A stretch of DNA of 64,000 bases from Quercus robur (taxonomy: Eukaryota > Streptophyta > Magnoliopsida > Fagales > Fagaceae): assembly GCF_932294415.1 (NCBI RefSeq), contig NC_065537.1, positions 52,771,802-52,835,801 of the forward strand, written 5' to 3'. Positions 21,751-63,592 of the stretch are shown here, piece by piece (position 1 is the first letter of the stretch; the number at the start of each line of letters is the position of its first letter). The notes beneath the pieces are model-generated. The model had not been told where the DNA came from and made no database searches. It saw only the letters and a program-made list of their open reading frames with translations. The position numbers and the translations under genes are program-made.

Positions 21751-23691
21751 TAAAAAAAAAAAAAAAAAAATTCTGATCCAGGGGCAGATCACGTGAACTG
21801 AGAGTCAGTGGACTGATAATTGACAAGATGGAGCACTGTTGTTTCTGCCTCATTGAGAACCACACGGCACCTGTGCTGCTGCCTGCTGTGCACCACAAAT
21901 TTCTTTCCACTCAAAAAGTAAACATCAAATCACCAGCTGCCCATAAGTCTTCAGAACGGCTAAAAAATTAAAACTAAACTCTAAGTCTCAACTCAAAAGC
22001 CTAAAATTGGAACTAAAACTCTAAAAACCTAAACTTTCCCAGTTTCCCTTCATTCTTCAGTCCGGCCTTCTCTCTCTCTCTCTCTCTCTGTAAAGTCTCA
22101 AAAGCCTAAAACTAAAAGCCTAAAATTGGAACTAAAAATCTAAAAGCCTAAACTTTCCAAAAGCCTAAACTTTCCCTTCATTCTTCACTAACACTTCAGA
22201 GTCCAGCCTTCTCTCTCTCACTCTCCAAGTCTCTTCACTCTTCTCTAGTCTTCGGCCTCCTCACTAACTCTCTTCCGTCTTCACTTTCCTCTAATTCTCT
22301 TCAGGCTTCACTCTCTCTCTCTCTCTCTCTATCTCTCTCTACCAGCCGGTCCAGCCCCAAATGGCTAGTCGGCTACCCTTCAAATCAAACTCAGATTTGA
22401 TCTTTCCCATGCCTCTGTTCATGAATCATAGTTTAGGGTTTCAAGACTCAACTTGGCTACACTTCTCAAAATCAAAATCAAAATCAGATTTTCCCTCATA
22501 TCTCTCTCTTATAAATTGGACTTTTCCCGAGTGTTCTACGTTCTCTCTGCTCTCTAGTCTCTCTAGTCTCTAGTGATTTCAAAATCTCTTATTTTTATTT
22601 TGAAACAAACAAATCCCTTTACTCCTTAACACTCAGCCTCTCAGACTCGGCTTCCTAGTCTCAGATCAGGTAAAGTTTCTTCCTTCCTATTTCATCCCTC
22701 TTTTTCTGTATTTTGTGTTTGTGATTCGGCAAATAAAGAGGAAAGCTTGATGATTTTCAGTCCTTTGTATGGTATAATCCGTTCTTCATTGATGCTAGAA
22801 ATTGCTAAGCTTTATTTTATTTTATTTGTTAATGTTGTGATCTGCTACTTAATTGCATTCGGCAAATATGAAATCAAACTTATTTGTTAATAGTTTCTCA
22901 GATTGTTAATCCGTTCTTCATTGATGCTAGAAATCAAACTTATTTGTTAATAGTCTCTCAGATTGTTAAATGCATTATAAGGAATCTAATTTTCATTTCA
23001 CCTTGTACAAATATGTGTTCTTTAATGTTGTGATCTGCTACTGAGTGTTATTTTCATTCGGCAAATATGTGTTATTTCCTCTTTTTTTGCCCAATCTGGG
23101 TTTATCATTTTGTTAGTGCTCTGTGTGTGATTTGTTAGTGCTCCCTGGGTTTATCATTTTCTTGCTTTGACTCATTATGGTAGTGCTCTGAGTGTGATTT
23201 GTATCTGCCCTATTTTATTCCTTGTTTGTTTTTTTTTTTAATGATCAATATACTTGTATCTTCACTGTAAAAAAAGAATATGAACCCCTATTTTAACAAG
23301 ATGAAATCCAAACACATTTTTATTTTCTTATCTGCCTGTTTTATTCTTTGTTTTGTTTCGTTTTCTATGATCAATGTACTTGCATCTTCACTGTATAAAA
23401 AAGAAGAAGATGAGCCTCTATTTTAAAAAGATGAAATCCACATTCTTATTTTCTTATGTGATTGTATTTTATTACTCGTTTGATTCATTTTGCTTTCTTA
23501 ACTTAAAATTTTGAAATGTTAATTTTATACAGGAGTTGAAATCCTAGGCTTTTTGCTTCCTTTTCAAGGTTAAATCCCTGATAGCTGAGAGTTCTTTGAG
23601 GTATCCTTTCTTTCTCTTTTAACTTCTTGTTATTGTTTGTGTGTTACTTTTATGGTTGTTTGCTAATCTATAAATTTGATGTTTATAGGTT

Positions 23692-25981
23692 ATGGAACCC
23701 TCAAGTGATGCATCCCCTTCCCAAGCAACACCTACTGCCACAACTGAACCTGTTGCCCAAGCTGCCCAAGCTGTACCTACTGCCCATGCTGAGGTTCCCC
23801 TACTTCCACCTAAAGGTAAAGGCAATGTCTGTACTAATAGGAAAAAGCCTATTGCCTGGAACCATTTTGAAAAAGTAGATATTGGTGATGGTCATTTTAA
23901 GGCTGTTTGTAATTACTGTCAAAAAACTTATCTAGCTGATAGTAAGGGGCATGGTACTGCTAATTTGTTGAATCATACACCAATCTGTGTTAAAAACCCT
24001 AATAGAAAGATACTTAGTGGGCAACAAACCTTAATGTTTGAACCTAAAATGGATGGGGAGGAAGGGTTTCAGCTTGTACCGACAGCCTTTACTGTTGAGG
24101 CTTCTAGAAAGGCACTTGCTGAAATGGTTATAATAGATGAGTTGCCTTTTAGGTTTGTTGAAGGGTATGGGTTTCAAAGATATGCAACAACCTTACAACC
24201 TAAGTTGCGAATTAGGGATATCCCATCTCGTCAAACTATAGCTAGGGATGTGATTAGCATTTATGGTGTTGAGAGAGAGAAACTAAGGGGGGCTTTGAAG
24301 GGTCGTAGGGTGTGTCTTACTACGGACACATGGACGAGTATTCAAAATCTGTGTTATATGTCCCTTACAGGTCATTTTATTGATGATGATTGGAAGTTAC
24401 ATAAGAGAATTTTGAATTTTTGTCAAGTTGAAGACCATAAGGGAGAGACTATAGGTAGAAAGATTGAGTTGTGTTTGCGTGAGTGGGGTATTAATGGCAT
24501 ATTCACTTTAACAGTGGACAATGCTAGCTCAAATGGTGCCACTATTAAGTTTTTGGAGAATGTAACTAAAGATTGGGAGGGGACTGTTTTAGAACATGAG
24601 TTCTTACACATGAGGTGTTGTGCACATATCCTAAATTTGATTGTGGGGGATGGTATGAGAGAAATTGATGCATCCATTGCAAAGGTGCGTGAAGCTGTGA
24701 GGTATGTGAAGTCCTCACCAAATAGGAATCAAACTTTTGTGGGTTTTGTGGAGAGATTAGGTATTGAGTCTAAGTCTCTTCTTTGTCTAGATGTACCAAC
24801 TAGGTGGAACTCTACCTACCTCATGTTAGAAACCGCACAAAAATTTGAAAAAGTGTTCATACGTATGGACTTTGAGGATGATAGTTATTCTTCATATTTT
24901 ATGAACAAGGAGAATAGTGGTGGTATGGGATCTCCTAGTAGTATTGATTTTCAAAATTGTAGGATATTTGTGGGGTTTTTGAAGCTTTTTTACAATGCCA
25001 CAAAAAAGTTTTCAGGTTCTTTGTATGTTACTGCCAACACCTTTTTTGATGAGATGTTTGTCATTCAAGAGAATATTTCCAATTTAAGTAAATCACAAAA
25101 CCACCTCTTGAAAAACATGGCAACTAAAATGGAATCTAAGTTTGATAAGTATTGGGGGAAAGGGGATAAAATGAATCATCTCTTGTATGTGGTTGTGATT
25201 CTTGATCCAAGAAAGAAGTTGAGGTTTTTGAAGTTCTGTTTTTCTGAAATTTATGGAAATGAAGTGGCTGATGTGATGGTTGAATTGGTGAGGGGTGCCT
25301 TGGTCAAGTTGTATGATTTTTATTCTCGTGTTGATTCATCAAATGTACAAGTAGCAAGTGAGAGGGAGAGGACACACATAGAAGGTGAGTCAATAGGTTG
25401 TAGTGATCCATATGTGATGGTTAATTCTAGGTTTGAACGGTTTTTGGAGGCTGAGCAGTCCATAGGGTGTAGCAATGAGATTGACAAATATTTGGCTGAA
25501 AATTATGAAAGTAGAAGAGGGGATGTGAAATTTGAGATATTAGGGTGGTGGAAGGCCAATTCAGATAGATATCAAGTGCTATCCAAATTGGCTAGGGATG
25601 TGCTGGCTGTACCTGTTTCTACTGTTGCATCTGAGTCAGCGTTTAGTACCGGAGGACGCATACTTGATCCATTTCGGAGTTCACTCTCCCCACTTATGGT
25701 TCAAAATCTGGTTTGTGCACAAGACTGGCTTCAAGCCTTGGTTCCAATTTCTTTTCGCAAATCAAAAGATGAGGTAGAGGTCTTGGAAGATGAATTTCAT
25801 GATTTAGGTAATATGTTAACTTCCAAACTTTGTCTATTAAGTGCTATTAAATGTGTCTTAAGCAAATGAAATTTAATCTAATAGTCTTCATTTCTTTCTC
25901 TTTCTAGTTATACGTCAAGCAGCAAGAGGTGGTGGAAGTTCAAGCTCAAGCAAAGGTATCTCAATTAACATTGATGACTAA
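23692..25981 (+). CDS. hAT transposase, BED zinc finger, intact
   Basis: A single open exon of 725 codons starts at ATG 23692. Splicing a GT..AG intron (25808-25907) would replace the last residues with a Gly/Ser-rich tail (IRQAARGGG...SINIDD) ending at TAA 25979-25981, giving 729 aa. From the N-terminus: a Pro/Ala/Thr-rich leader; a BED zinc finger (about residues 45-105, C-x2-C in CNYCQK, then NHTPIC); the RNase H-like catalytic core with LTTDTWTS and TVDNASSN carrying the expected Asp residues; a long alpha-helical insertion; and the C-terminal hAT dimerisation domain (WWKANSDRYQVLSKLARDVL, VPVSTVASESAFSTGGRILD). Length is close to Ac-family transposases. No stop or frameshift is visible. 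Likely source of any movement of related non-autonomous copies. Confidence 0.94.
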
Positions 25982-31479: not shown

Positions 31480-32850
31480 GATTTAGGAGAAACCAGACCA
31501 CAAGCCTGGGACTTTATTGAATAAACAAAACAGAACTTAATGAACATCAAAGTCTATCAGCTCGGCAATGTCTAAAGGCAAAGCTTCCATCCAAAGCTGG
31601 CAGCCAACAATGGAAGAGGCCTTTTTTGCAAGAGCATCCGCTACTATATTACCCGAGCGGTTTACATGACTAAAAATAATTGATGAAAAACTAGGCAGTA
31701 GATGCCGTACATCATCTACTATATTTTCGAAGGAGGACAGTCTCGAAGTCCCCTGGGAAACTGCAGAAATAATTGTGGCCGAGTCACCTACAAATATTAC
31801 GTGATGAAGATCAAGCTCAGCAGCAAATTGGACCACTTTGAGGCAAGCGAGAGCTTCCATATCAGCAACTGTTGATGATAGCATAGCAGGCACAGACAGA
31901 GCACCAAGGTTAGCACCTCGCCAATCACGCACGATGACACCGAGTCCAGTTGAGTTCGTGTGTTTGAAGAGGGCAGCATTGAAGTTCACTTTAACAAATC
32001 CTTGTTTTGGATGGCGCCACTGATGCCGAACAGCAGGTCGAGAGAGAGAAGCTTCTGGAATCTGACTGGTAATGAAGTCGTGGAGTAGAGCACATGCAGC
32101 GGCGCTGATCTTCGCTATGGGTAGAGCATCACGTCCAAAATGGAGAGCGTTACGTCTATTCCATAAGCTCCATGTAATTGTTGCGAACATCTCCGTTTTG
32201 AATTCGTCACCTACCTGCATAAACTTGTTAAGTAAATCACAGAAATTCAGGGGAAGGAGAGATATCATGGACTGGAACCATTGGTAGGGCAGCCACACAG
32301 GAGCTACATGGCTGCAGAAACACAACGCATGGAGAGCATCTTTTGGAGCAGCTTTACAGAGCTCACACGCATCCGATTCTGCAATATGTCTTTGCTTTAG
32401 ATTGCATTTAGTGGGTAAGGCATTGTTACACACCCTCCAAACAAAATGTTTTATTTTGTTGGGCACCTGCATCTTCCAAAGACGTTTCCAAAAGCTCCTT
32501 TGGTTGGCCTGGTTGGACGAACTTGCATGTTTTGTTGAAGCCGAGGCAGCCAGCAACTTATAAGCACTACTAGTGCTGAATTCTCCGGTTGGGGTGCACG
32601 ACCAAGACACACAATCAGGGGGATTTCTATAGCTTAGTGGAATACCTAATATCATTGAAGCTTCATGAGGTAGAAAAGCATGGTTTACCTCCTCAGATTT
32701 CCACACACCCAAATCAGGATTAATTAGAGAGCTCACCCTTCTTTCTGCCATCACTGAAGGGAGGGGGGAAAGGATTACTCTACTCGTATAAAAGGCTGAA
32801 GTGTTGATGTGTTTTCTTTGATACACATGTCACTTTTCATTGGACTTAGA
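31480..32850 (-). mobile_element. 5'-truncated L1-type LINE, open zf-RVT plus RNase H frame
   Basis: A single open frame of 429 codons (32826 down to 31537) carries, in order, the end of the reverse-transcriptase region, the zinc-binding RVT domain (SAYKLL, FWKRLWKMQVPNKIKHFVWR, CELC..H..CF) and an RNase H domain (VKVNFNAALF, GLGVIVRDW, VGDSATII, NRSGNIVADALAKKA). No stop or shift is visible, so the insertion may be fairly young. Plant genomes often annotate such pieces as 'putative ribonuclease H protein'. Reverse transcriptase and endonuclease are missing, so it cannot be autonomous. An AATAAA on the minus strand follows the stop codon. Ends and TSD were not resolved. A domesticated gene is possible but unsupported. 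Confidence 0.85.
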
Positions 32851-36029: not shown

Positions 36030-37325
36030 TGGTAAAGAGGAGATAATTAGATTAGATTAAATGGAAACAGTTACACCTCGAGTGGTTCGAGTATACAAAA
36101 CACTAGTAGCATCATTAGTTAAGACCTTCATAACACCAAAAGGAGGGGAAACATAGTAAACAAAAGGATCAAGCTAGCTATGTCCTAGTTTAGCAAGGAA
36201 GTCAGTAGCACGGTTAGTCTCCCTGAAGCAGTGTTGTAGCTGGACCTCTTGGAAAGCTTGGAGAGTGTTCCTGCAATAATCCACAATGGGTTGGATTAGC
36301 CGATTAGTGGCTTTTGTGTGAGAGAGGAGGTTAAAAACTTCAAGTGCATCCACATTAATAATGAGTTTTTCAATATGAAGATCTCTAGCCATAATTAGCC
36401 CATCTCTTAATGCCCAAAGCTCAGATAAAAGGCAGCTAGACTTGCCAATTTTCCTAGAGAAACCTTTCACCCAGTCACCACTTGAATCTCTAATAAGACC
36501 TCCACCACAAGCATGATCCGAGGCTGCCAAAACAGAGGCATCGGTGTTGAGTTTATGCCATCCGGGGTTCGGCTTGATCCAAGAGATATGCAAACTTCTT
36601 TGAGGGATTGGCTGGTTGGCTCCTTGAGTGAGGTAGAAAAATTCTGTAGCTCTTGCAATACACTCTTTAATGCTAGGAGGGGTTGCTTGGTTCCTTTGAT
36701 GAACAACTGAGTTTCTGTTTAGCCAAAGTGACCGAAGCCCGAAGCAAAAACTGATTCCCCATGGTACACGATGGCATTGAGAGGTGAGCTTGGAAGTACC
36801 ATTGAAGTGTAGCCAATCAAGGAGGGGAAGTCCAAAGGATTGGATGACATTTGAAGGAAGACCAAGCTGGTTCCAGAAACTTACCGAGAAGTGACATTCT
36901 CTAAGGAGATGATTACTTGTTTCCTCATGGCTGTGACAGAGGGGGCAAGCTTAATATATGGTTAAACCCCTTGAACCCAAAACTTTTCTAACTGGTATAC
37001 TATTATGAGAACAGAGCCAAACAAAAAGGATGATTTTTTGAGGGGTGTTCATTTTCCAAATCCAGTTAAGATTATTAGTAGTAGGGTTCAAAACATTTAA
37101 ACCTTTAGCTAGCAGGTAGGCCGAACCCAATGTGAAATTTCCATCACTTGAAGGAGACCATGCAATAGTGCCACTACTTGGAGAGGTGGGATTGGTGGGA
37201 ATGGCTTGAATAACATCCAGGAAAGATTGGGGAGGAGAGAAGGAGAGGTTATCCCAATTCCAGCAACCATTAGAAGCAACAAAGTCACTGACCAAATTGT
37301 TTTCTTCCTGAGCATTAAGGGGACC
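36030..37325 (-). mobile_element. 5'-truncated L1-type LINE upstream of the kinase gene
   Basis: Minus-strand frame from 37295 to 36174 encodes the zinc-binding RVT domain (FTLGSAYLLAKG, WIWKMNTPQKIILFVW, ACPLCHSHEETSNHLLREC) and RNase H (WHKLNTDASV, GGGLIRDSSGDW, NVDALEVF, NRATDFLAKLG). One in-frame TAA (36951-36953) is the only interruption. The left edge is a poly(T) that merges with a target repeat gaaccattttttttt (36015-36029 and 37326-37340). The T-run part of this 15-mer is low complexity, but gaacca is unique. The insertion lies about 160 bp upstream of the kinase start codon. Confidence 0.85.
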
Positions 37326-37501: not shown

Positions 37502-38677
37502 ATGAAGAGAAAGCGAGAACTGGAATCTGAATATGAAGAAGGCGAGTTTAAACTACAGAAAAGTCTAATGGGAGGGTCATGGCAATGAGGCCCACTGCTT
37601 GGAAAAGGGGGTTTTGGGTCTAAATATTTGGCTGTTCTCACTGATCCTGGACTAAGTATCTCTGCTAATGCTACCCAGGTTGTGGCCGTGAAGTCTACTA
37701 AGGAGGATGATTCTGAGGAGCCTTGGCTAGACAATGGTTTTCTGGATGCTCTTCAGGGCTGCCCTTACATTGTTACTTGCTTTAGAGAAGATTTTACCGT
37801 TGATGCTGAGGATGAAGAGGCCCCTTGCATAGCCAATTACTTTATGGAGTATGCTTCTCAAGGAACTCTTGCTGATCTAATCAAGAAATTAGAATGTGGC
37901 TTGCCTGAGGAGGACGTGAAGCGCTTTACAAGGATGTTACTTGAGTGGCTGGACTTTGTTCACAAGAAAGGCATTGTTCATTGTGATATAAAGCCTCAAA
38001 ATATTCTGCTTGCACCTGATGAGACAGGTTTATTGGTTGCAAAAATAGCTGATTTTGGTTTGGCAAAAAGTACTTTAAGAGACTTGGAGATAGGTGTTAG
38101 AGGGACTGCCATGTATATTGCTCCTGAGAGCATTGTTGATGAGATTCAGCTTCAACCATCTGATGTTTGGGCACTCGGTTGTGTGGTTCTCAATAAGCTA
38201 ACAAGGAGGCCAATTTGGAAACTGAATTTGGATGAGGGTATTGAAGACCTTTGGAAGCAAATTGCCTCGGCAATAACCAGTATCCCAGATAGGATCTCAC
38301 ATCTGGCCAAAGACTTCTTGCTTAAATGCTTTGTTAGGAATCCTGAAGAGAGGTCAAGTGTTGGCAGCCTCTTATATCACTCTTTCGTCAATGTTGTTTT
38401 ACACGACATGCCCGAATTTGAAGTGGGTTTCTTATCCTCTTGTGCTGTTGCTTCTTCTGATCTTGAAGAAAAATTTAAAGAAGAAGAGGTGCAGGAGGTG
38501 TATGATGATGACATTATGGAGGACCCCTCTGAAATTGAAATTGGGAATCAAGTAACACTTTTTGGCTCATCATGGGCTTCCAAAGAAGCAGTGGAAGCTG
38601 CTGTAAAGCTTTTCAATTTTGTTCGTGTAGATAATATCATACCACTCGGTTCAGCAGTTAGATTCAAAAAAAATTGA
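37502..38677 (+). pseudogene. MAPKKK17/18-like protein kinase with early in-frame stop
   Basis: Intronless, as in the MAPKKK17-20 clade of plant stress-signalling kinases. The frame from ATG 37502 reads MKRKRELESEYEEGEF..., then a TGA at 37586-37588 (codon 29) directly before the ATP loop GKGGFGS. Relatives usually have Arg or similar there (SW-x-R-GP), so a CGA-to-TGA change is likely. After it the frame is open to TGA 38675-38677 and keeps the ATP Lys (VVAVK), the catalytic loop HCDIKPQN (HCD in place of HRD is normal in this clade), DFG, and the APE-like IAPES motif. An acidic C-terminal tail follows. The next ATG falls inside the kinase domain, so a restart would lack the loop and Lys. 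It is a recent pseudogene, an allele, or a case of read-through or assembly error. A LINE sits in its upstream region. Confidence 0.85.
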
Positions 38678-43200: not shown

Positions 43201-44337
43201 TCATAACACAGTTTATGGACAAAAGCTAAATTGGAAGTAATTTGAGGAACTCTGAGCACATTTTTAAGTTTAAGAAGAGAATGAGAATTAGGTAAGTCAA
43301 CATTACCTATGTGAGTGATTGGAAGGCCCTGACCATTGCCAACAGTTATGTGTTCTTGACCACCATAAGGCTTGGGAAAGGACAAATTGTTCAAGCTGGA
43401 GGTAAGGTGATCTGTTGCTGCACTGTCAGCCAACCATGGTTCTTGAGTATGACTAGCATTGGAAGTAGCTGACATTGCTGCTAATTTGGTGGGTGGATGT
43501 TTGCCTTGAAAGGCAAAATCCATCTTGTGATAGCAATCTAAGGCCGAATGACCTATCTTGCCATAGATTTTACAAGTTGGTCTAGAGGAAGAACCTTGAG
43601 AAGTGACTCTTCTTTTGCATTCAATAGAGTGGTCAACTCATCAAAAGTCAGCTGTGTACTTTTGGTACGAATAGCAGATTTGAAGGAATTAAAGTCCTTT
43701 GGCAGTCCCTTGAGTGCTATGTGAAGCAATTCTTCATCATCAATAAGAACACCAACAACCATAAGTTTGTCCCTTACCACTTTGATTCTTTGCAGATAGA
43801 CATCCACACTGTCAGTTCCTTTCTTTATATTGTGAATCTCACCTTTCAAATTCATGATGTGAAATCTTGATACTGAAGAGAAACGATTCTCCAATAATTT
43901 CCACATTGCTTGAGCAGAATTGCATCCCACAGTGAAAGCAAGAGTTGTTAGAGACAGAGTTGAGCTGATGAAGGTCATAAGTGCCTTTTCTTTAGACTTC
44001 CATATATGAAACTTAGGATTCAGATTGGTTGTCACAGCACCTGAACTGTCTTTGAGAAATTGATCTGTACAAGGTTGAGAGCCATTGAGCAATTCAATCA
44101 TCGAATAGGTTTCAAGTACCATTGTTATTTGATGTTTCTAAACTATGTAATTGGAATTTTCCAGCTTCACTGTCATCATATTTGACATATTGGACAGCAA
44201 GAGTAATGGCTGATTTGTAATGTTTATGGCAATGCCTGAATTGGTCGAGGAAGCCATTGTTGAAGTTGTAGAAGCAGTAGTTGCAGTTGAATGTGTTGTA
44301 GGAAGAGTGGTTGAATGAATTGTGGGCTCTGATACCA

Positions 44338-45410: not shown

Positions 45411-47264
45411 TGGAGCAATTTTATAAAACTAGCACGCTTCATCGATAATACAATCACAGACTTTGCATCTTGTTTAAGCTAATGGTTTCTGGACCAAATG
45501 GCATTTTCTCTTCTTAGCACACAGCCACATGACTAAATTGTTAAATTGTACATGATTTCTTCAACCTCTGACTTAGGGTGGAATGTATGCTTATGTGTCT
45601 AGGCATCTTGTTGTTTGTAATTTAATGCTTATCTTAAAGCATTCATTAAATAAAGAAAAAATTGTTGAAGCCGCATTATATCAGGAAGCAGACTAGGCAG
45701 AAATCACTCTAGCTTACCTTTTCTTCTTGGTAGAATTACAATGATGGAAGGTATTTTTAGCATAGACCACCCAAACAAGATCACCACATTCAGTTTAGGT
45801 AAAATAGTAAAATGAAGGTTCCTGCAAACACAAAAACAAAGTCTGCTGAGCCACTATATTCATTAAATGGAATGAATTTGAGCTTAAAGGACCATCCTTG
45901 CATAGGAAGATATCTACCATCTCAGAGCTGAAGAGAACCATTGGATGACGGTCTCTCAATCGCCTATTCAAGAGTAAGCTTTGTACTCACACTCAAGTTC
46001 AAGCAATTTGAATTGTCCATGTTGGCTTGTTTTTTAATTAATGGATCAGTTTTGCTTGCCCATCAAAGCTTCATGTGTTTGGAAATAAAAGAAGGGGGCT
46101 CAATTATATTTCTTCTTTCTTTGCCCAACAACGATCGACAACCCAAACAGGTCAGATTTTTTTTAATCACTATTTTGTTTTTGCTCATTTTGATGATAAT
46201 ATGTATGTATGTATGCAATTTCGAAGTAGAGTATGGAGTTTAGCTCCAGCTTTTTTGATATGGCAGATTGAGGGGAGAGGAATAGAAGGACCTTCGAAGA
46301 GCAGGAGACACCTACAGAGAGGGTGAAATCCCATTTTGTTGGAACTTTATTTTGCTGGGTGCCTTTTAGATAAACATGTTGGAAATCTGAGAGGTCCTCT
46401 AGTTGGAGCTTAATTTTTTTTATTTATAGAAGGAAGCTGTTAAGGATAAGGAAGTGGCTCCTGGGAGAGCCATATCATCTACTTTTGCTGATTTCTTGCC
46501 CCAGAATTAAAGGGGAAAAGATGACAGCTGCACTTGTACGGTATAAGTAAATTGACCACCTCAATCAGGTGATTTCAGAAGCTTGAGAGTTATGAAATTC
46601 AAATATTAACACACACACATATATATTTTAATATTATAAGGGAAAAATTAATAGATACCCTATTTGCATTGATCTAATTAAAATTTTTTTAGTACTCATT
46701 AGTCTCATCACATGCACTCCGCATATGCAATGAGACTATTTATTTATTTATTTATTTTGAGTTTAATGTAATTTTTCAATTAGAATTTATCTATGGTTAA
46801 GGAATTTTTAAGAAACTAAAATTTAGGAATTAAAATAAAATAAATTGCTAGGTTTAGTGTGTGCTAGTTTTTAGAAAAAAATGTATTAAACGAAAGTGAG
46901 ATATATTTAAATGAGAAACTACTTTTTAGGAAAAAAGTTTCTCTAATGGTTTTGAATTTTTTTGAATTACAATTTTAACCATAATTTTTTTTTTTTTTTA
47001 AGAATAAGGATTATCTAATTAAATTATAAGTATTTTTGACATTTTTTTTAAAGACATAACTAACTTTTTGAATTCTCTTAATATATTAAAATAATACAAA
47101 TTTAAATCTTGTCTTCAATATTTCATATAAAAAAAAAAAAAAAAAAACAAAACAAAACTTGTCTACGTTACACTAGTCTACATTCTGCGGTTTGGCTTTG
47201 CGCTACACTAAAAGCAGAATCTTATTTTTGGTGTCAACTTCACAATTGATCCATGACTACACTT
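45411..47264. other. Spacer before S28 copy 1, one exon-like piece
   Basis: Mostly AT-rich. An exon-like piece is at 46430-46510. The last ~150 bp (from about 47100) match the 3' flank of S28 copy 2 and are probably 3' UTR. A (TTTA)n run is near 46739-46757. Confidence 0.5.
46430..46510 (+). other. Exon-like segment, unidentified
   Basis: A good acceptor (T-rich tract then tatttatag) precedes an in-phase stretch KEAVKDKEVAPGRAISSTF.. ending with LPQN and TAA (46508-46510). Composition is coding-like and unlike the flanks. I do not recognise the protein and found no convincing upstream exon. It may be the last exon of a broken or missed gene. Confidence 0.22.
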
Positions 47265-47928
47265 CTATCCAAACTTACGCAAATCTTCGTAGTACTTGTT
47301 AAACCACTGTTCTATTATCTTGGTTATTTTTAGTCGCTGGTCGACCAACCAATCTGGGTCGTCTTCACTTGCGTTCAATATATCAAGGCAATGAGAACCT
47401 GCAGAAATTAACTTTATATTAGTAAAGTTGTTCCTCAATAAAGGCCAGCAAATTAAAGATAATTATTTTGATATTTTTTGGGGTCACAAAAATTCAATGG
47501 AACTAATATGACAATGACAATCTCACATCCATACACATTATTCCTTTCACATTTTAAATATGGACATCGCATTTGAAATTGTGAATGCAATGTGTTCGGA
47601 GTGTATATTATGAATTTACCATTTTTTGTAGTCAAGGCAACTAGGGTGTCTGATATGTCTTCCAATATCCTGAAATAAGAACATATTAAATCATTCTAAC
47701 TAAATAAAAGGATCAATATTTTTGCCCCCACAAAAAAAAAAAAAAAAAATCTAGATTATATATTTTTGAAAAGTTACCCTGCACTACTATATGGGTCACG
47801 GAGGCCATTGGTGAAGATGATGTTGCTACCAAACTTGTGGAGAACCCTTTTTATATGCTGCAATTTTACATTGAGAAACCAAAAAAAAAAAAAAAAAAAA
47901 AATTCATTTACGTCATTTTTAAATCACT

Positions 47929-47966
<38 letters not shown>

Positions 47967-50900
47967 CCATACTTCACCACCATAATAAGTTGTGACCCAA
48001 TGGGGCGCAGGTTCGACTCCAAATTTGTCCACGCAGTAGTCCTTATAATCTTTGTAATCATATGATATTTCAGGAAACATGGTTTCATTTGGGCCACATC
48101 CAATTATTGTAACCTCTTCATTACATGTCTACAAAGGCCAAGGAGAGAGGTCTAATCAAAATAACGTTCTGTAATTGTTGAAGCTGTATGAATTCCATGA
48201 TTTAATTTTGTAAAGTAAAATGACCACAAAATTAAAATGACTATGTAATTAAGAAAAAGAAAATTGATAAAAATTTCATATGCATTACCTGCCAGTCCCA
48301 ACCATCCAGTGTTTCTGATGAAAAGAATTCACCTAAATCATAGCACTTTCTACTTTTCTCGTAATAAGCAACAACTCCTGAGAAAATTCGGCCAAGAATG
48401 TCGGTTCCATTAGCTCCTCCGTCAATACCTCTGCAGACAGTGTCCACTGGATAGTCTGGAGGACTATCATATTGAGCCGCGACTGAATACAGACTGTTCA
48501 AGTAATCCTTTAACTCGGATGCCTTCTTCAATGGCCTAATGGGGAAAAAAATGTTATATAGGACAAAGAAAGAGCTATATAGTTGAAAACTATGTGTAAG
48601 ATGAATGTACCAACATAATTGTATATTATGAATGTACCAACATACATAATTGTATAATATGAATGTACCAACATACATAATTGTATGTGATGAATGTATC
48701 ATGGATAATGCAGGAGGCTAGTTGGAGCCGTTAATATAATTGTATAAGATGAATGTACCAACATACGTAATTGTATATTATGAATTTACCAACATACATA
48801 ATTGTATGTGATGAATGTATTATGAATAATGCAGGAGGCTAGTTGGAGCTGCTAATGTAATTGTATAAGATGAATGTACCAGCATTTTCCTTGGAAAAAC
48901 AAAAATACAGTCCAATGAGTCACCATACATTTTAATCTAAAGTTAACAAAGAAATGGGATATGGAGACAATGAAGAACTCAGTATTATTACTTGCAAGTT
49001 TTGAATTTCTTGCTGAGTTCGGAAAGACCATTGGGTTTTGCAGCAACTCTATCAATCTCAGACCATGAACTCTTTACGGTTTCATAGCAGCTCCAACTAG
49101 CCTCCTGCATTATCCGTAATACAAATTCAGTTTCAAATTTTCAATCATTACAAGTGAAGGAGGGGGGATTTGAACCGTAGTTCTGTTTAAAAAAACACGA
49201 CCAGACTATGTCACTGAGCTATAGGCTTTGTGAAAAAATAGAGTATATATAAACTATTGATTTTAACCTGAAAGTCCTGGGTAACAACAACATAATATGA
49301 ATTTGGTGGCACAAGGTCATCGAAGTAAAGAATGGGTGCTGAAGAGGCTAATGCCCCCATTGCAATATGAGGATACTTCAGGCGGAACCATGCTGCAAGT
49401 TCTGTTGGGAAAAAAAAAAAAGTGGAAAACATTAGGAAGTGAGATTAATATATGAAGTTTATAGTTTGAGTGGGATTTAATTTCTAATATTCATAAGACT
49501 TACCTCCACTATAAGATCCTCCAGCTACTAAAACTGGAGAGGAATCGGCTGATAAATTTTTCTTCAAGCTTACAATTAATTCTGCATAATCTGCTAGAGC
49601 TTGATTTGAGCTACAGTAGCCGCGAATGGTAGCATTTTTCAATGCTCCTTCTCTTGTAAATCCATGCGGGATTGATTGTCCATAGAAGCGATGCTGCACG
49701 AAAAATAGTTAGGACCAACAACTTTAGAATATATTTCTTTCATGATGCCACCAGTGAATTTGTTCCAATAAAGGTTAAACAAAAAGGAAAACAATTTGGA
49801 GGTCAATAAATGAACAATGTTAAATTTCTATATAATTAATTAATTACCAACAGTAGTGGAATCATATATTTAATGTAGTGAATCTAGTGATTGAACCAAG
49901 TAAAGATAGAAATTCAATCTCTATGCTATATAGGCTTGTAGCAATCTTGTTATTCCCATATCGAGTAAACATTGTTCAGTAATTAACTTTTAAAACATAA
50001 TTTATTCTAAATTCAAGATTATCCGAGCTTGTTGAATATTTTTGCAATTATATTAACGCTTGTAACAGTATAGTCTCTTGTTCTGGAATAAGAAATTTGT
50101 GTTCGAGTTCCATCAACAATATATTCATATATATCTTATAGTATGTATCAAAACAGTATATTACAATTGGATATTCTAAGAGCATTCTAGCAATCTTATT
50201 ATTCTTCAAGCGATTTTAATTTCTCATAAATTGATTCTCAAAAAAAAAAAATTTCTCATAAATTATATAAATTTGTATAATTACTATATATATATTCAAT
50301 TCATATCAGAACATTTTCTTATTCGGTGTGCAAACAATGAGGTTATTTATTTATTTTCAATTCAAAATGTAGATATAAAAAGGCAATTTTTTTTTTTTTT
50401 TTTTTTGTGATGTGGCCATAATTTTCTTTGTTTTGGAGACATTAAGAAGCAAATCAATGACGTTATTTATTTATTTTAAAGAAAGTTTATACACACAAAA
50501 CTATAAAAATCAAGTTTACCCAATTAATAACTAACAATATGCTTATACTCACCTCTGCATACACCTCCAAACCACCAAACCTGCGAGCATTATCCACCAT
50601 GAATCCTGTAGAACCAACATCATCGTCTGAAGAAGACTCCCCTCCGAGATATACGAATATGGGAGCAGCCTTCTTCGCGCCACCCCAATGTGTAAAATTC
50701 ACGATATATCTTTGCCGGAATGTGGTATAGCTTTCGGGCTGATAATTAAAGTGATCGAGCGGTTGGTCATAATAGAACGTTTGATAATCATTTTTTGATC
50801 TAGTTGCAGTTAGAGATTGGCTGTGACTATTTTGTGCCCTATTGTTGTATCCTCGTCGCACACCAAGCCTTGGTCTCCCTGGTTGTGAAGCACAAGTGAA

Positions 50901-50978
50901 CGTAACGAAGAGTAAAAGAATAAACAAACATGGAAGCCATAGAGTTGCCTGGAATGACCTTGGAGCTCTAATGGCCAT
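47265..50978 (-). CDS. S28 serine carboxypeptidase copy 1 (Pro-X carboxypeptidase-like)
   Basis: Peptidase family S28 enzymes remove residues after proline and work in vacuole, lysosome or apoplast. Nine exons on minus: 50978-50553, 49693-49504, 49401-49268, 49104-48992, 48535-48289, 48128-47973, 47857-47778, 47669-47620, 47398-47265. All have GT..AG junctions and agreeing phases, giving 509 aa. A signal peptide covers about residues 1-30 ([19 protein letters not shown]). The triad is Ser202 (VAGGSYSGE), Asp443 ([11 protein letters not shown]) and His468 (GSHCLDI). HRFYGQS, the [11 protein letters not shown] helix and Cys residues fit the family. The residue two after Ser202 is Ser where the family and copy 2 have Gly (GGSYGG). 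An in-frame upstream extension is only a poly-Lys translation of a poly(T) run and was rejected as start. It is the leftmost of three tandem copies. Confidence 0.93.
48590..48880. repeat. Tandem units in S28 copy 1 intron 4 with inverted exon-4 copies
   Basis: About 2.3 units of roughly 122 bp, rich in 'gaatgtaccaacatacataa' words. Each full unit contains an inverted copy of the gene's own exon-4 acceptor region: 48703-48728 (26 nt exact, versus 49090-49115) and 48826-48854 (29 nt exact, versus 49085-49113). The same intron in copy 2 (60236-60439) lacks them. It keeps a simple 'gaatgtactaacattttcc', so this is an expansion specific to copy 1. Confidence 0.93.
49155..49232 (-). mobile_element. 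tRNA-derived SINE head in S28 copy 1 intron 3
   Basis: On the minus strand, box A (tagctcagtgacatag, 49221-49206) and box B (ggttcaaatcccccc, 49176-49162) have tRNA-like spacing. The corresponding intron of copy 2 keeps the box A side (cttgtagctcagtg, about 60595-60572) but has lost box B. The insertion therefore predates the gene duplication. Ends are approximate. Confidence 0.65.
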
Positions 50979-51052
50979 TATAATATGTGGGAGAAATGCA
51001 CACAGTTCTTGAATGGGAAACTCGGTATTATTTTTTAAATGGAAAGGAACTA

Positions 51053-51060
51053 CTTCTATA
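51053..51060 (-). promoter_or_regulatory. TATA-like box, S28 copy 1
   Basis: TATAGAAG on minus, 75 bp before the start codon. It sits in a block shared with copies 2 and 3 (aactaaattt..ttg..cccaaaa on +). The equivalent positions are TATAAAAG in copy 2 and TATTAAAG in copy 3. Confidence 0.5.
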
Positions 51061-51093
51061 CAACTAAATTTGAGTTGGTCCCAAAAAAATTGC

Positions 51094-51142
<49 letters not shown>

Positions 51143-52914
51143 TATTCAAAGTATGTTATCTGTAATGATTCTTGACTTTGTCATGTTCTTGCAGTATTAA
51201 TTTATCTCTTTTACATTTATAAACAAAATGTAACGAAGGATTTCTATATTTGGTTCTAAAAGAAGTGCAGGCATTTTGCTTTGGTGTACTAATAAAAAAT
51301 AGTAATTTAGAAAATTATTTTTTTCTTTTGTTAATATGGCTTTCATTATATTAGTTGTCATGTCAATTTGTAAATTATTTATAGTAAAATTTGTGACAAT
51401 TTTAGAATTTCTATATATAATAGCAATCGCTTTTGATATATATATATATATATATATGCAATAGGACTTTACTTTATAAATCTAAAGCTTTGGCAAAAAA
51501 GAATAAAAAAAGAAAAAGAAAACACAACCTAAAGGAGTATTGTAGTATGAATTGTATTATCACCACCTTGAAAATAAAAGAAAAACCAATAACGTTTCAC
51601 TCAAAATAATTTTTTTTTTAATGTTTCCAACATAAATGTTCAAGGGTTTAAATTTGCTTTCATGGCTTAAAATGTATATATATTCCAATAATTTTTTATA
51701 TATATGTATATATATGCTTTTTATCTCTCTTAAAATTTACATGCTTAGTATTTGCAGTGGGAATTTTTATTTTTATTTTTTCACTACATGTTTGTTTTTT
51801 ATATCTACTATTAAAGGTACCTCTACCTCTACACCTCTACACACCTCTCTAAACCACTCTCCCTTTGTACCTCTCTACACCTCTACCCCTCAACACCTCA
51901 ACACCTCTCTACCCCTCAACACCTCTCTACCCCTCTACCTCTCTTTAGCTCTCTATACCTCACACAGAGAGAGAGAGAGAGAGAGAACAAAAACAAAAAT
52001 GCAACTATGAAACAAACTTGTCATCAAAATTCCTAAGTTTGTCGGTTATAAGAGGGATAAAGAGAGAACATATTTATATCTAAAAAAAAGGGGGATGAGG
52101 AAGATGAAAGGTTGGAGAAGATGATGAAATATTATACATGTAGATAATTGAAGTAAATGTTATTGTAATTGCTAAAATAATGATCTGATATAAAAGCAAA
52201 AGGAAAAAATAGATACACACACGTTTGTGTAAAAAAAAAAAAAAAAAAATCAAAAGCTAAAAGTTAGGAGAATATTGTATACATTTTAGTACTATATGTG
52301 TACAATTTTAATTTTATATGTCGAGAAAGGGAAAAAAAATGACTTCTAGGCTTCTTTCTAATTGTGATGTATTTAATTATGGTTCCAAAATAAGTTTTTT
52401 AATAAACCCAATAATATCTAATAGATAATTAGATTACACATATTTCAACAAATTACTTTTTTTAGAACAAAATACTTTTAGCTTTTGAAAATTAAATAAC
52501 AAATTAGGAGAATAATCTTAGAAGGGGAATGATTAGGAAAATAAGTAGATAAATAACAAATTAAGAATTAGTGGTCATAAATAATAATAAAAAATGATCT
52601 TAAATACCATACTAAATAAATGCATTTATTTCATTCAAAATTTTAATTATAGATGCCACGTGTCTAGTATTATGGCAAACACATTGAATGTACAAATACT
52701 TTAGAATAATACTATGTTTGTTACATTTTCACAACAAATTTTAGATGCATAAGCAAAGTTGGGGGGCCATGGCCCCTGGCTTTTTGAAAAATTTCAGTTA
52801 TAAAATATAGACTAAAAAAAATGATATATTATATGTAAATTGAATAACTGGCCCCCCTAGAATTTTTAGGAAAAATGTATTATTGGTTTAGTCTCCGAGT
52901 AAAATTTGAGTTTA
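51061..52914. other. Spacer upstream of S28 copy 1
   Basis: A poly(T) run (about 51097-51140) stands where copy 3 carries the MITE cluster. The sequence after it (tgtattcaaagtatgttatctg, to about 51250) matches 63590-63710 and marks the edge of the duplicated block. A CT-rich minisatellite (acctctctacccctcaac words, 51818-51960) and a (GA)n run (51966-51985) follow. No gene supported. Confidence 0.6.
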
Positions 52915-52923
52915 AAAAATCAA

Positions 52924-54725
52924 GGCGAAAATGCACTTTTAGTTCCTACATTTTGGGCCTATTCTCAATTTGGTCCCTAAATTGATTTAGCTCCTAGGTT
53001 AGTTCCTGATTTTTAAAAATCGTTTTTAAAATAGTCCTTGCCGTCAACCCGGTTATGGAATAAGCTGATGTGGCAAACGGAGTGCATAGGTGGCATGTTA
53101 ATCGCTGACGTGGCAAATAAAATAATATTAAAAAAATTTATTTTGCTTTTAAAAATGACAAGTCAGCATTTTAATTAATAAAAAAATAAAAATAATTAAA
53201 TTGAAAAAATTCAAAAAAAATTCAAAAAAAAAAAACCTTTTTTCAATTTTAAATATTGAGAAAACAATTTATAGTTTCAATTTTTCTTGAACTTTCTTAA
53301 CAAACAAACATTAAGTTAACACCCCTTCTCATTCTAGGCTGGCATGTCTGTGTTTGTGTTTGTATCTATTTCATTTTCTTCTTTCTTTTAAGATAAACTA
53401 AAAAAAGAAAAATCAAAATAAAAATAACTTAATAAATAAATATGGTGAGTGTTTGTGTGATTGTGTCTGTATCTTTCTTCTTTTCTTTTCCTTATTTTTT
53501 TTTTCAGATCCTCTATTTCTCTATCTCATGGTGCGTATATTTGTTTGTATCTTTCTTTGTTCAAGCTTTCAATCCCTCTCTCTCTCTCTAAACCTGACTC
53601 TCTAATCTTTGGGTTTTTCTAGTTTTCCGTGGGGTGGCCGGTAATGGAGGTGGAGATCGGTAATCCATGGGTCTTGGATTATGGGTTTGGTTGGAGATGG
53701 AGATGGCTGAGTTTGGTTGGAGAGGGCTGGGTTTTTCTGGGTTTGGTCGGGGTGGAGATCGGTGGTCAGGGTGGTCGTTTTTGTTGGAGAGGGCTGAGTT
53801 TTTCTGGGTTTGGTCGGGGTGGAGATCGGTGGTCGGGTGGTCGTTTTTGTTGGAGAGGTCTGGGTTTTTCTGGGTTTGGTCGGGGTGGAGATCGGTGGTC
53901 GGGGTGGTCGTTTTTGTTGGAGAGGGTTGAGTTTTCTAGGTTTGATTAGGGTGGCGATTGGTGGTCGTTTTTGTACTGTTTAGTGGACTGTGACTCGGAT
54001 TGGGCTTTGACTAGGTGGATTTGGTGCTGTTGATGGCGAGTTGATGGTGGATTTGGGTTTGTTGATGGTGGATTTGGTGTTGTTGATGGCGGATTTGGTG
54101 TTGTTGATCGGCGGGGTGTTGTTTGATGAAGTTCTGGGTTAGAGGTTTGATGATTTTTCTGGGTTGGTTTTCTCATGTTGGTTTTGGTTTGGGTTTGATG
54201 AATTTTTCATGTTCTGGAGGTTTTGGTGGAGGATAGGGATTTTGTATGAAATATTGCATTGTTTTGGGTTTGATTGTGCGCTTGTTCTGGGTTTTTGGAT
54301 TTTGAAGAACAAGTTAATGTGTTCTTAGCTAAACAATAATGAAAGCAATAATAATAATAAAAATAAAATCAAATTTAAAAGTTTGTTTTTGTTTTTGTTT
54401 TAATTTAGTTTGAATTAAATTGAAATTGAAAAATATAAATTATTTTTATTTTTTTAATTAAACTAACGTGGCTTTTTTTAATTTAGAAAATGCTGACATG
54501 GCATTTAAAAAATTTTAATTATATTTTTTAATTATTATTTTATTAGCCACGTCAGCAAACAGTACATTCCGTTTGCCACCTCAGAATTTTTTGTCACTGG
54601 GTTGACGGCAGGGACTATTTTAAAAATGATTTTTAAAAATCAGGGACTGATCTAGGAGCTAAATCAATTTAGGGACCAAATTGTGAATAGGCCCAAAATG
54701 TAGGGACCAAAAGTACATTTTCGCC
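52924..54725. mobile_element. Mutator-like element (MULE), 1.8 kb, perfect 9-bp TSD
   Basis: Identical 9-mers AAAAATCAA flank it (52915-52923 and 54726-54734). Terminal inverted repeats of about 200 bp start ggcgaaaatg.actttt.gt.cctacattttggg and run through 'gatttttaaaaatc', 'gccgtcaaccc' and 'ctgacgtggc'. No transposase is present. The interior (53470-54330) is a CT-rich stretch followed by GC-rich tandem repeats and could be captured sequence. It is non-autonomous. Confidence 0.92.
53700..53945. repeat. GC-rich ~66-bp tandem repeats inside the MULE
   Basis: Three to four units contain ctgggtttggtcggggtggagatcggtggtc followed by gggtggtcgtttttgttggaga; the words are broken up by small changes. 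The long open frames here are products of the repeats and not genes. A shorter gttgatggtggatttgg repeat follows at 54030-54110. Confidence 0.85.
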
Positions 54726-58989: not shown

Positions 58990-60820
58990 CTATGCAAACC
59001 CACGCAAATCATTGTAGTACTTGTGAAACCACCATTTGATTACCTTGACTGTTTTATTTCGTTGTGCGGTAAGCCACTTTGGGTCGTCTGCCGTTGCAGG
59101 CACTATGTCAAGGCAATGAGACCCTGCAGAAATCAACTTTAAACTAGTAAACTTGTTCCTCAATAAAGGCCATTGATATTTTTTTGGGGTCCAAAAGTTC
59201 AATGGAACTGTTAATATCACATTCATTTTTGTACATATTATCCCTTTCACATTTTAAATATGGATATCGAATGTGAAATTGTAGACTCAATGCGTTTAGA
59301 TAGTACGTTAATAAGTGTGGAAATATTTATTGCATAAATTATTATGATTTTATGAATTACCTTCTTTTGTATACACGGCAAGTATGGTGTCTGATATGTT
59401 TTCCAACACCCTGAAATAAGCACATATTAAATCATTATTAGGAAACTAAATACCAAATATGACAAAATATCATAAAAGGATAAATATTTTTGCAATAAAA
59501 AAATCTAGATTATATATTTTTGAAAAGTTACCCTGAATTACTATAAGGGTCACGGAGGCCATTGGTGAAGATGATGTTGCTACCAAACCTCTTGAGAATC
59601 ATTTTTATATGCTGCAATTTTACATTGAGAAACAAAAGAAATCATGTCCATTATTTTTACATCACTTACACACATAAACAAACAGAGAGAGAGAGAGAGT
59701 AGCCATACTTGACCACCATAATAAGCAGTGGCCCAATGGGGCCTAGGTTCGACTCCAAATTTCTTCATGCAGGAGTCCTTATATTCATTGTAATCAAATG
59801 GTGATGCTTGAAACATGGTTTCGTTGCCTCTCCCAAACGGCGAGACCAATTCGCTACATGTCTACAAAGGCCATGAAGAGGTTTAATTAGAATAAAGTTT
59901 GGAAATTTTTGTAGCTGTGAATTCCATAATTTTGTAAATGAAATTGATTAAATTAGAAAAAGAAAATTAATAAATGCATGTGCATTACCTGCCAATCCCA
60001 AGCACTCAGTTTATCTGTTGAAAAGAAATCATTTAAATCATAACACTTTCTACTTTCCCCGTAATAAGCAATAACTCCGGAGAAAATTCGGCCAAGAATG
60101 TCGGTTCCATTAGCTCCTCCGTCGATACCTTTGCAGACAGTAGTCACTGGATAGTCTGGAGGACTATCATATTGAGCCACGACTGAATACAAATATTCTA
60201 AGTAATCCTTTAATTCAGATGCCTTCTTGATTGGCCTAATGGTAAAAAAAAAAAAAAAATGTTAAAGGACAAAGAAAGAGAAATATAGTTGAGAACTACG
60301 TGTAAATTAATCATGAATGTACTAACATTTTCCTTGGAAAAACAAAAATATATTCCAAGTAATCACCATAAATTGTAATTTAAGGTTAACAAAGAAATGG
60401 GATATATGAAGACAAATGAAGAACTTATAGTATTATTACTTGCAAGTTTTGAATTTCTTGCTGAGTTCGGAAAGACCATTGGGTTTAGCAGCTACTCTAT
60501 CGATCTCAGGCCAGGAACGCTTCACGGTATCATAGCAGCTCCGACTAACCTCCTGCAATATCCATAAAGGAGACCGGACTATAACACTGAGCTACAAGTT
60601 TCTTAGCACAAAATATAAGGTCTGGTTCAAAGTATAAACTATTGATTTTAACCTGAAAGTCCTTGGTAACAACGACATCATATGAATTTTGTGGCACAAT
60701 GTCATCAAAGTAAAGAATAGGTGCTGAAGAGGCTAATGCCCCCATTGCAATATGAGGATACTTTAGGCGGAACCATGCTGCAAGCACTGTTGGGCAAATA
60801 AAAAGGTGGAAAACATTAAT

Positions 60821-62373: not shown

Positions 62374-62662
62374 GATATCTAGGAGAACCGCACGCATTTC
62401 TTGAATGGAAAACTCGGTGTCATATATATTTATGTGGAAAAGAACTACTTTAATACAACTAAATTTATGTTGATCCCAAAATTATTGCAAGATTTTTTTG
62501 GGACAAATTTTAGTTACAAAATTGATTGTATCCTTATGTTACAATCTTATTTAATATCTTTTTATTGGAGGTGAATTTTGACAAATCTACTATTGGATAA
62601 CATATTTTTTTTATATTCTTCATGTTTGCAAAATTTCTATAAAATTAAAAGTTAAAAACTAT

Positions 62663-62883
62663 GGGTCCATTTGGATTGAGCTTATTTTTGCTGAAACTGA
62701 AAATACTGTAGCAAAATAATTTTTAAATGTGTGAATAGTACCGTAGGACCCATTTTTAATTTTTTTATGAATAAAGTGGCTTTGGGTCCTATGAACAGTA
62801 CGTGAACAGTACCGGAATAGTGCGTGAACAGTGACATTTGTCTCATGAACAGTAAATTTTGTCTCCTCCCTGAAACGTGTGAA

Positions 62884-62922
<39 letters not shown>

Positions 62923-62963
62923 CAACGCAGGATTCAATGGAAACGCTGAATCCAAACAGCATC
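62663..62963. mobile_element. ~300-bp MITE inside the outer MITE, TSD TAT
   Basis: Ends share tttggatt[gc]agc in inverted orientation (gggtccatttggattgagc; gctgaatccaaacagcatc). The flanks tat (62660-62662 and 62964-62966) restore the outer element's 'aactatgtcatc'. Its body has the repeated 'gaacagt' words common in such plant MITEs and a poly(A) of about 34 bases (62887-62920). Confidence 0.78.
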
Positions 62964-62983
62964 TATGTCATCAATAAATTGTT

Positions 62984-63381
62984 GGATAAAGTTTAGCTAC
63001 AAAATTGGTTGTAGTCTAAGACTATAACCTTACTCAATAAAATAAATATCATTACATATTTTGAAAATCTAATCGTTGAATTGCATATTCCTTATGCTCT
63101 TAATATACATGTCAAATTTTGGATCAATCGGATATTATTTACTATATAATCCATAAGTTTATATTTTATGCACAATTTTAAACTACAAAAACTTGCAATT
63201 TAAATAATTTATTGATAACATAGCTATTGATTTTTAATTTTTTAGAAATTTTGTAAGCATGGAGGATATAAGAAGAAGATGTAATCTAATGGCGGATTTG
63301 TCAAAATTCACCTTTAATAAAAAGATATTGAGTAAGGTTATAACCTTAGGCTAGAATTAATTTTGTAGCTAAATTTTGTCC
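62984..63381. mobile_element. 398-bp MULE-type MITE inserted in its own relative
   Basis: Perfect 9-bp duplication TAAATTGTT (62975-62983 and 63382-63390). Ends are ggataaagtttagctacaa and, on the other strand, ggacaaaatttagctacaa. It belongs to the same family as the outer element and the copy at 10560-10889, in the opposite orientation to the outer copy. Confidence 0.9.
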
Positions 63382-63592
63382 TAAATTGTTTAAATTACAA
63401 GTTTTTGTAGTTTAAAATTATGCATTAAATATAAGCTTATAGATCATATAGTAAATAATATTTGATTGACACAAAATTTAACGTGTATACTAAAAACGTA
63501 AAAAACATACAATTTAACGATTAGATTTTATTGAGTAATGTCATAATCTTAAGTTACAACTAATTTTGTAGCTAAATTTTGTTCTTTTTTTG

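Follow-up and report, generated by a model that had tools for sequence, protein, structure and literature searches.

The analyzed window, a 64,000-nucleotide stretch of the Quercus robur genome, contains on its minus strand (47265-50978) a gene for an S28 serine carboxypeptidase, hereafter copy 1, with nine coding exons that encode 509 amino acids; the spliced model forms one frame with one terminal stop. Residues 72-489 of the protein match positions 1-433 of the 434-position Pfam profile PF05577 (Peptidase_S28, E = 9.9e-74), so that the domain is full-length, and the best relative of known structure is Lysosomal Pro-X carboxypeptidase (PDB 3n2z, E = 1.3e-84). Exon 4 of this gene (48992-49104, minus strand) is 113 nt long and starts in phase 0, with intron 3 ending at 49105. 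The second S28 copy, at 61960-58990, has an intact frame in the gene model and shares 73% amino acid identity with copy 1 (508 codons, dS 0.249, dN 0.172); its exon 4, which serves here for comparison, lies at 60440-60552 on the minus strand. A third copy, partial and limited to the exon 1 region, is located at 62373-62137 and suggests a tandem S28 cluster with one incomplete member.

A 39-nt stretch of copy 1 that spans the intron-3 acceptor (49085-49123, minus strand; the final 19 nt of the intron followed by 20 nt of exon 4) recurs twice in inverted orientation within intron 4 of the same gene. Arm B (48816-48854, plus strand) lies 230 nt from this source and is 95% identical to it over 39 nt, with 29 nt exact; arm A (48695-48733, plus strand) lies 351 nt away and is 90% identical over 39 nt, with 26 nt exact. 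The presence of inverted splice-acceptor copies in intron 4 of copy 1 is confirmed, and the preliminary description had given the exact lengths and coordinates correctly, namely 26 nt at 48703-48728 against 49090-49115 and 29 nt at 48826-48854 against 49085-49113. When the window was screened for exact inverted matches of at least 14 nt within 1 kb under a complexity filter, the two arm-source pairs proved to be the longest of the 20 matches found, followed by a 22-nt match in the repeat-rich stretch at 62.5-63.6 kb. Because the 29- and 26-nt cores top this filtered list and the longest exact inverted match in 100 Markov-1 null windows was 17 nt, the inverted arms are not a product of chance. 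With the filter switched off and mismatches allowed, longer inverted pairs do occur in the window; among the 25 of 42 pairs listed, these were SSRs near 20.4 and 21.2 kb, the cluster at 62.5-63.6 kb (78-86% complementary) and a 75% pair at 35.3 kb. The arms had been described as missing from copy 2, and this is the case: a search of the whole window with the 23-nt core, allowing up to three mismatches, found elsewhere only the acceptor of copy 2 itself, with three mismatches.

The arms are embedded in a minisatellite of 27-31-bp units (48593-48885), and intron 4 is 456 nt long in copy 1 compared to 204 nt in copy 2. Read on the minus strand, the intron 4 blocks measure 90, 31, 90, 31, 27 and 25 nt, all starting with TGGTA, the last of them ending with the extracted stretch; both 90-nt blocks consist of a single arm flanked by two partial units. 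Tandem Repeats Finder reported periods of 31, 59 and 121 bp in the array. At the longest of these periods, two tandem units (48612-48853) each combine 31-bp-type subunits with one arm; the tandem unit noted earlier is thus real, but its length is 121 bp rather than about 122 bp, with 10 of the 121 sites differing between the units. Copy-1 positions 49119-48870 align to copy-2 60567-60313, and copy-1 48616-47093 to copy-2 60328-58815; because these flank alignments meet at copy-2 60313-60328, intron 4 of copy 2 contains a single array unit (near 60313-60329). Automatic alignments of introns 4 and 8 were poor near the rearranged stretches and were left out of the results.

The array has a second splice-site sequence in common with the gene, given that the exon-8/intron-8 donor of copy 1 (47602-47621) matches the array unit at 48772-48791 in direct orientation at 20 of 20 positions. 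The five remaining TGGTA units match this donor sequence at 16-19 of 20 positions, and donor 8 of copy 2 is different. In 100 Markov null genes, the closest 20-nt match reached 18 identical positions.

We infer the following order of events, which as a whole we consider probable. A single ancestral sequence of about 30 bp would have grown into a minisatellite in intron 4 of copy 1; one break-repair or replication event would have introduced a strand-switched, inverted templated insertion of about 39 bp from the nearby intron-3 acceptor/exon-4 boundary; and a subsequent 121-bp tandem duplication would have produced the second arm. The arm closer to the acceptor would be able to pair with it in the pre-mRNA and loop out exon 4; splicing most likely tolerates this arrangement and is affected only slightly, if at all. 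Both arms have identical extent and surroundings inside the 90-nt blocks, so that one insertion is enough. Copy 2, with its single unit and no arm, points to an ancestral state without an arm, the polarity being taken from one paralogue. Among other routes to the present arrangement, two independent inverted insertions were set aside because the ends and neighbors are common to both arms, and copying via a spliced mRNA was rejected because the arms contain intron-3 sequence.

The arms are reverse-complement copies of a nearby source, which supports the earlier proposal that they originated by strand-switched copying. Read from the sequence strings, microhomology amounts to 4 nt (TACA) at one junction and is slight at the other; judging from these features, template switching and polymerase-theta filler synthesis would both fit the insertion. 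A study on Arabidopsis break repair documents templated insertions in which microhomology averages 3 bp, and T-DNA junction fillers that map in forward and reverse-complement orientation (PMC10923293). An inverted repeat is reported to arise in one step through template switching (PMC8794818), and template-switch events in great apes are reported to be enriched in introns, with short-range switches surveyed within +/-100 nt (PMC7954356). The arm-source distance of 230-351 nt exceeds the range of that survey and was counted against our preferred explanation.

At several sites of this boundary that differ between copies 1 and 2, the arms agree with copy 1; at site 49116, the arms and copy 2 have T and the present source has C. 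Because the arms follow copy 1 elsewhere and share T with copy 2 at this site, the source would have been copied on the copy-1 branch, before the change at 49116, and this source base appears, from the sequence comparison, to have changed after capture. The preliminary description took the exact identity of arms and source as a sign of recent origin, a conclusion that is not supported: four of the differences between the 121-bp units (JC 0.088) fall inside the arms, and site 49116 apparently has been altered since capture. Because the divergence of the units amounts to about 0.35 of the dS between the gene copies, a rough ratio that rests on ten changes only and that array homogenization could make an underestimate, the event is not demonstrably recent. 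There was no sign of extra conservation of the arms relative to the rest of the unit, with small numbers of differences (4 of 39 versus 6 of 83 sites) and with two arms and one source providing little power; the probability of no difference in the 26-nt core at that rate is 0.11.

Pairing between the arms and the acceptor, as had been suggested, would be thermodynamically favored according to the fold of a 926-nt pre-mRNA that extends from exon 3 into exon 5. A stable duplex over the intron-3 acceptor is predicted, with a pairing probability of 0.97 for arm B and 0.03 for arm A, and the predicted energies of the isolated duplexes are -66.9 kcal/mol for arm B and -64.0 kcal/mol for arm A; pairing has largely survived because some of the changes in the arms keep a G-U pair. 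Over the region from -20 to +3, the predicted mean unpaired probability was 0.10 with the arms, compared to 0.31 with the arms scrambled (20 scrambles), 0.32 with the array removed and 0.32 in copy 2, and from -1 to -19 it was predicted at 0.07 with the arms versus 0.38. When the other seven acceptors of copy 1 were folded, each in a 701-nt stretch, the exon 4 acceptor was predicted to be the least open of the eight (0.09-0.10 versus 0.33-0.75). The AG itself, however, had an unpaired probability near zero without the arms too (0.03 with the array removed, 0.08 in copy 2 and 0.07 with scrambled arms), and the predicted openness from -20 to -45, outside the arm, changed little (0.36 versus 0.47). 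No YTNAY motif with its A between -20 and -45 was found in copy 1, the nearest A being at -51. Of the 11 shorter transcripts folded, those ending at 48854 or before it lacked the pairing, and those reaching 48830 or farther showed it; a limit of 150 or 250 nt on the pairing span abolished the duplex, and limits of 300 or 400 nt allowed it.

These predictions bear directly on the possibility that the arms hide the intron-3 acceptor of copy 1, so that exon 4 is skipped or intron 3 retained in a regulated or leaky manner, with early stops and decay lowering the amount of protein. We consider this unlikely. The strong predicted duplex, the reduced openness from -20 to +3 and the largely preserved pairing were counted against our preferred explanation, and masking draws further on the probability of pairing with arm B, on the formation of the duplex in the folds once this arm is transcribed and on the rank of the acceptor as the least open one. 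Moreover, exon 4 is 113 nt long, so that skipping would shift the frame and end it at codon 273, and retention of intron 3 would end it at codon 269; the expected outcome of masking is therefore decay or truncation, with no new isoform. Against masking, the AG is predicted to be paired in copy 2 and also in copy 1 once the array is removed; the zone from -20 to -45, where the branch site is expected, is not covered by the arm, and its predicted openness hardly differs; transcription reaches the nearer arm 230 nt downstream of the acceptor; and the pairing disappears from the fold at the 250-nt span limit. In plants, hairpins at 3' splice sites were reportedly not strong blockers in the work of Liu et al. 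(EMBO J, 1995), where the stems are said to have been about 24 bp and a second acceptor downstream is said to have been needed, a part that the intron 4 acceptor could play in copy 1; similarly, Eperon et al. (1988) reportedly found that long loops fail in vivo and short loops are needed. These studies make strong masking unlikely, yet the 39-nt stem is longer than those reportedly tested in them. In Arabidopsis nuclei, splicing is reported to go along with openness of branch sites and of two nucleotides that precede 5' sites (PMC7784297). In a more elaborate version of the idea, the two arms would compete for pairing with the upstream acceptor and act as a copy-specific RNA switch that adjusts the inclusion of exon 4, depending for instance on temperature or on the speed of transcription. 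We regard this as very unlikely, although, if true, it would mean that one DNA copying accident made one sister gene conditionally splicing-silenced. The regulatory reading of the arms is, in our assessment, improbable.

Two further explanations do not involve masking. It is highly unlikely that the arms form a young hairpin feeding Dicer-like enzymes, with small RNAs from the exon-4 boundary acting as a proto-miRNA or in siRNA silencing of the S28 genes. The predicted 39-nt stem is near-perfect, but the 230-nt loop is long by the criteria for plant miRNAs, and Rfam gave no match at the gathering threshold over 46800-51500, a search that a new family would escape. A precedent for small-RNA production exists in IIL1 of Arabidopsis, where an intronic repeat expansion is described together with 24-nt siRNAs (PMC12177298). 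The remaining alternative, an assembly artefact in the tandem repeat, appears extremely improbable. Tandem arrays are difficult to assemble; however, the two units in the assembly are not identical, each arm has changes of its own, and both flanks of the array align to copy 2.

Although their geometry looks unusual, the arms most likely belong to a familiar class of mutation that hardly affects splicing. Compared to polymerase-theta fillers, the copy 1 event is natural, known by its outcome alone and longer than most of them are reported to be. It resembles the fillers described at plant breaks in being a short insertion from nearby sequence, with small microhomology and in a class that occurs in either orientation (PMC10923293). 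As described for template-switch mutations (PMC8794818, PMC7954356), a nearby stretch would have been copied in reverse complement, making a stem possible at once; the copy 1 case differs from those in the gap of 230-351 nt between source and copy, in having landed in a minisatellite and then been duplicated, and in spanning a splice junction. In IIL1 of Arabidopsis Bur-0, too, repeat growth is reported in the intron of one allele or copy (PMC12177298), but that repeat is a GAA/TTC triplet and the array of copy 1 is a minisatellite with an inverted gene fragment, and an effect on the gene is on record at IIL1 only. Among the papers listed in literature searches, judged by title and the opening of the abstract, none describes the present configuration, which does not prove its absence. 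The nearest parallel in geometry is provided by the artificial plant splice-site hairpins of Liu et al. (1995), in which the 3' splice site was likewise covered by a stem; the copy 1 structure is natural, with a 39-nt stem and a 230-nt loop that holds nearly the whole exon.

The locus offers a natural test, in plants, of whether a 3' splice site within a long-range duplex is still used, with neighboring sister genes that do and do not carry the arms in the same nucleus. It would also be an example of an inverted templated insertion that was amplified together with its host minisatellite and that is roughly datable against a paralogue. If splicing of copy 1 is normal, the case is one of an ordinary intronic rearrangement.

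Several other elements were detected in the window. The cluster of long imperfect inverted repeats at 62497-63580, which adjoins the partial S28 copy, is perhaps a transposable element. A 726-aa open frame at 23689-25866 contains hAT dimerization, RNase-H-like and BED domains and is possibly an intact hAT transposase, and a 177-aa open frame at 8468-8998 matches the DDE_Tnp_4 transposase. Retroelement remains, consisting of zf-RVT and RVT_3 frames and a copia-type gag, are located at 31540-32829, 36177-36950 and 43556-44137, and a protein kinase domain lies in a 362-aa open frame at 37589-38674. At 53712-53967, a tandem array with a 66-bp period (3.9 copies, 91% matches) is G-rich on the plus strand.
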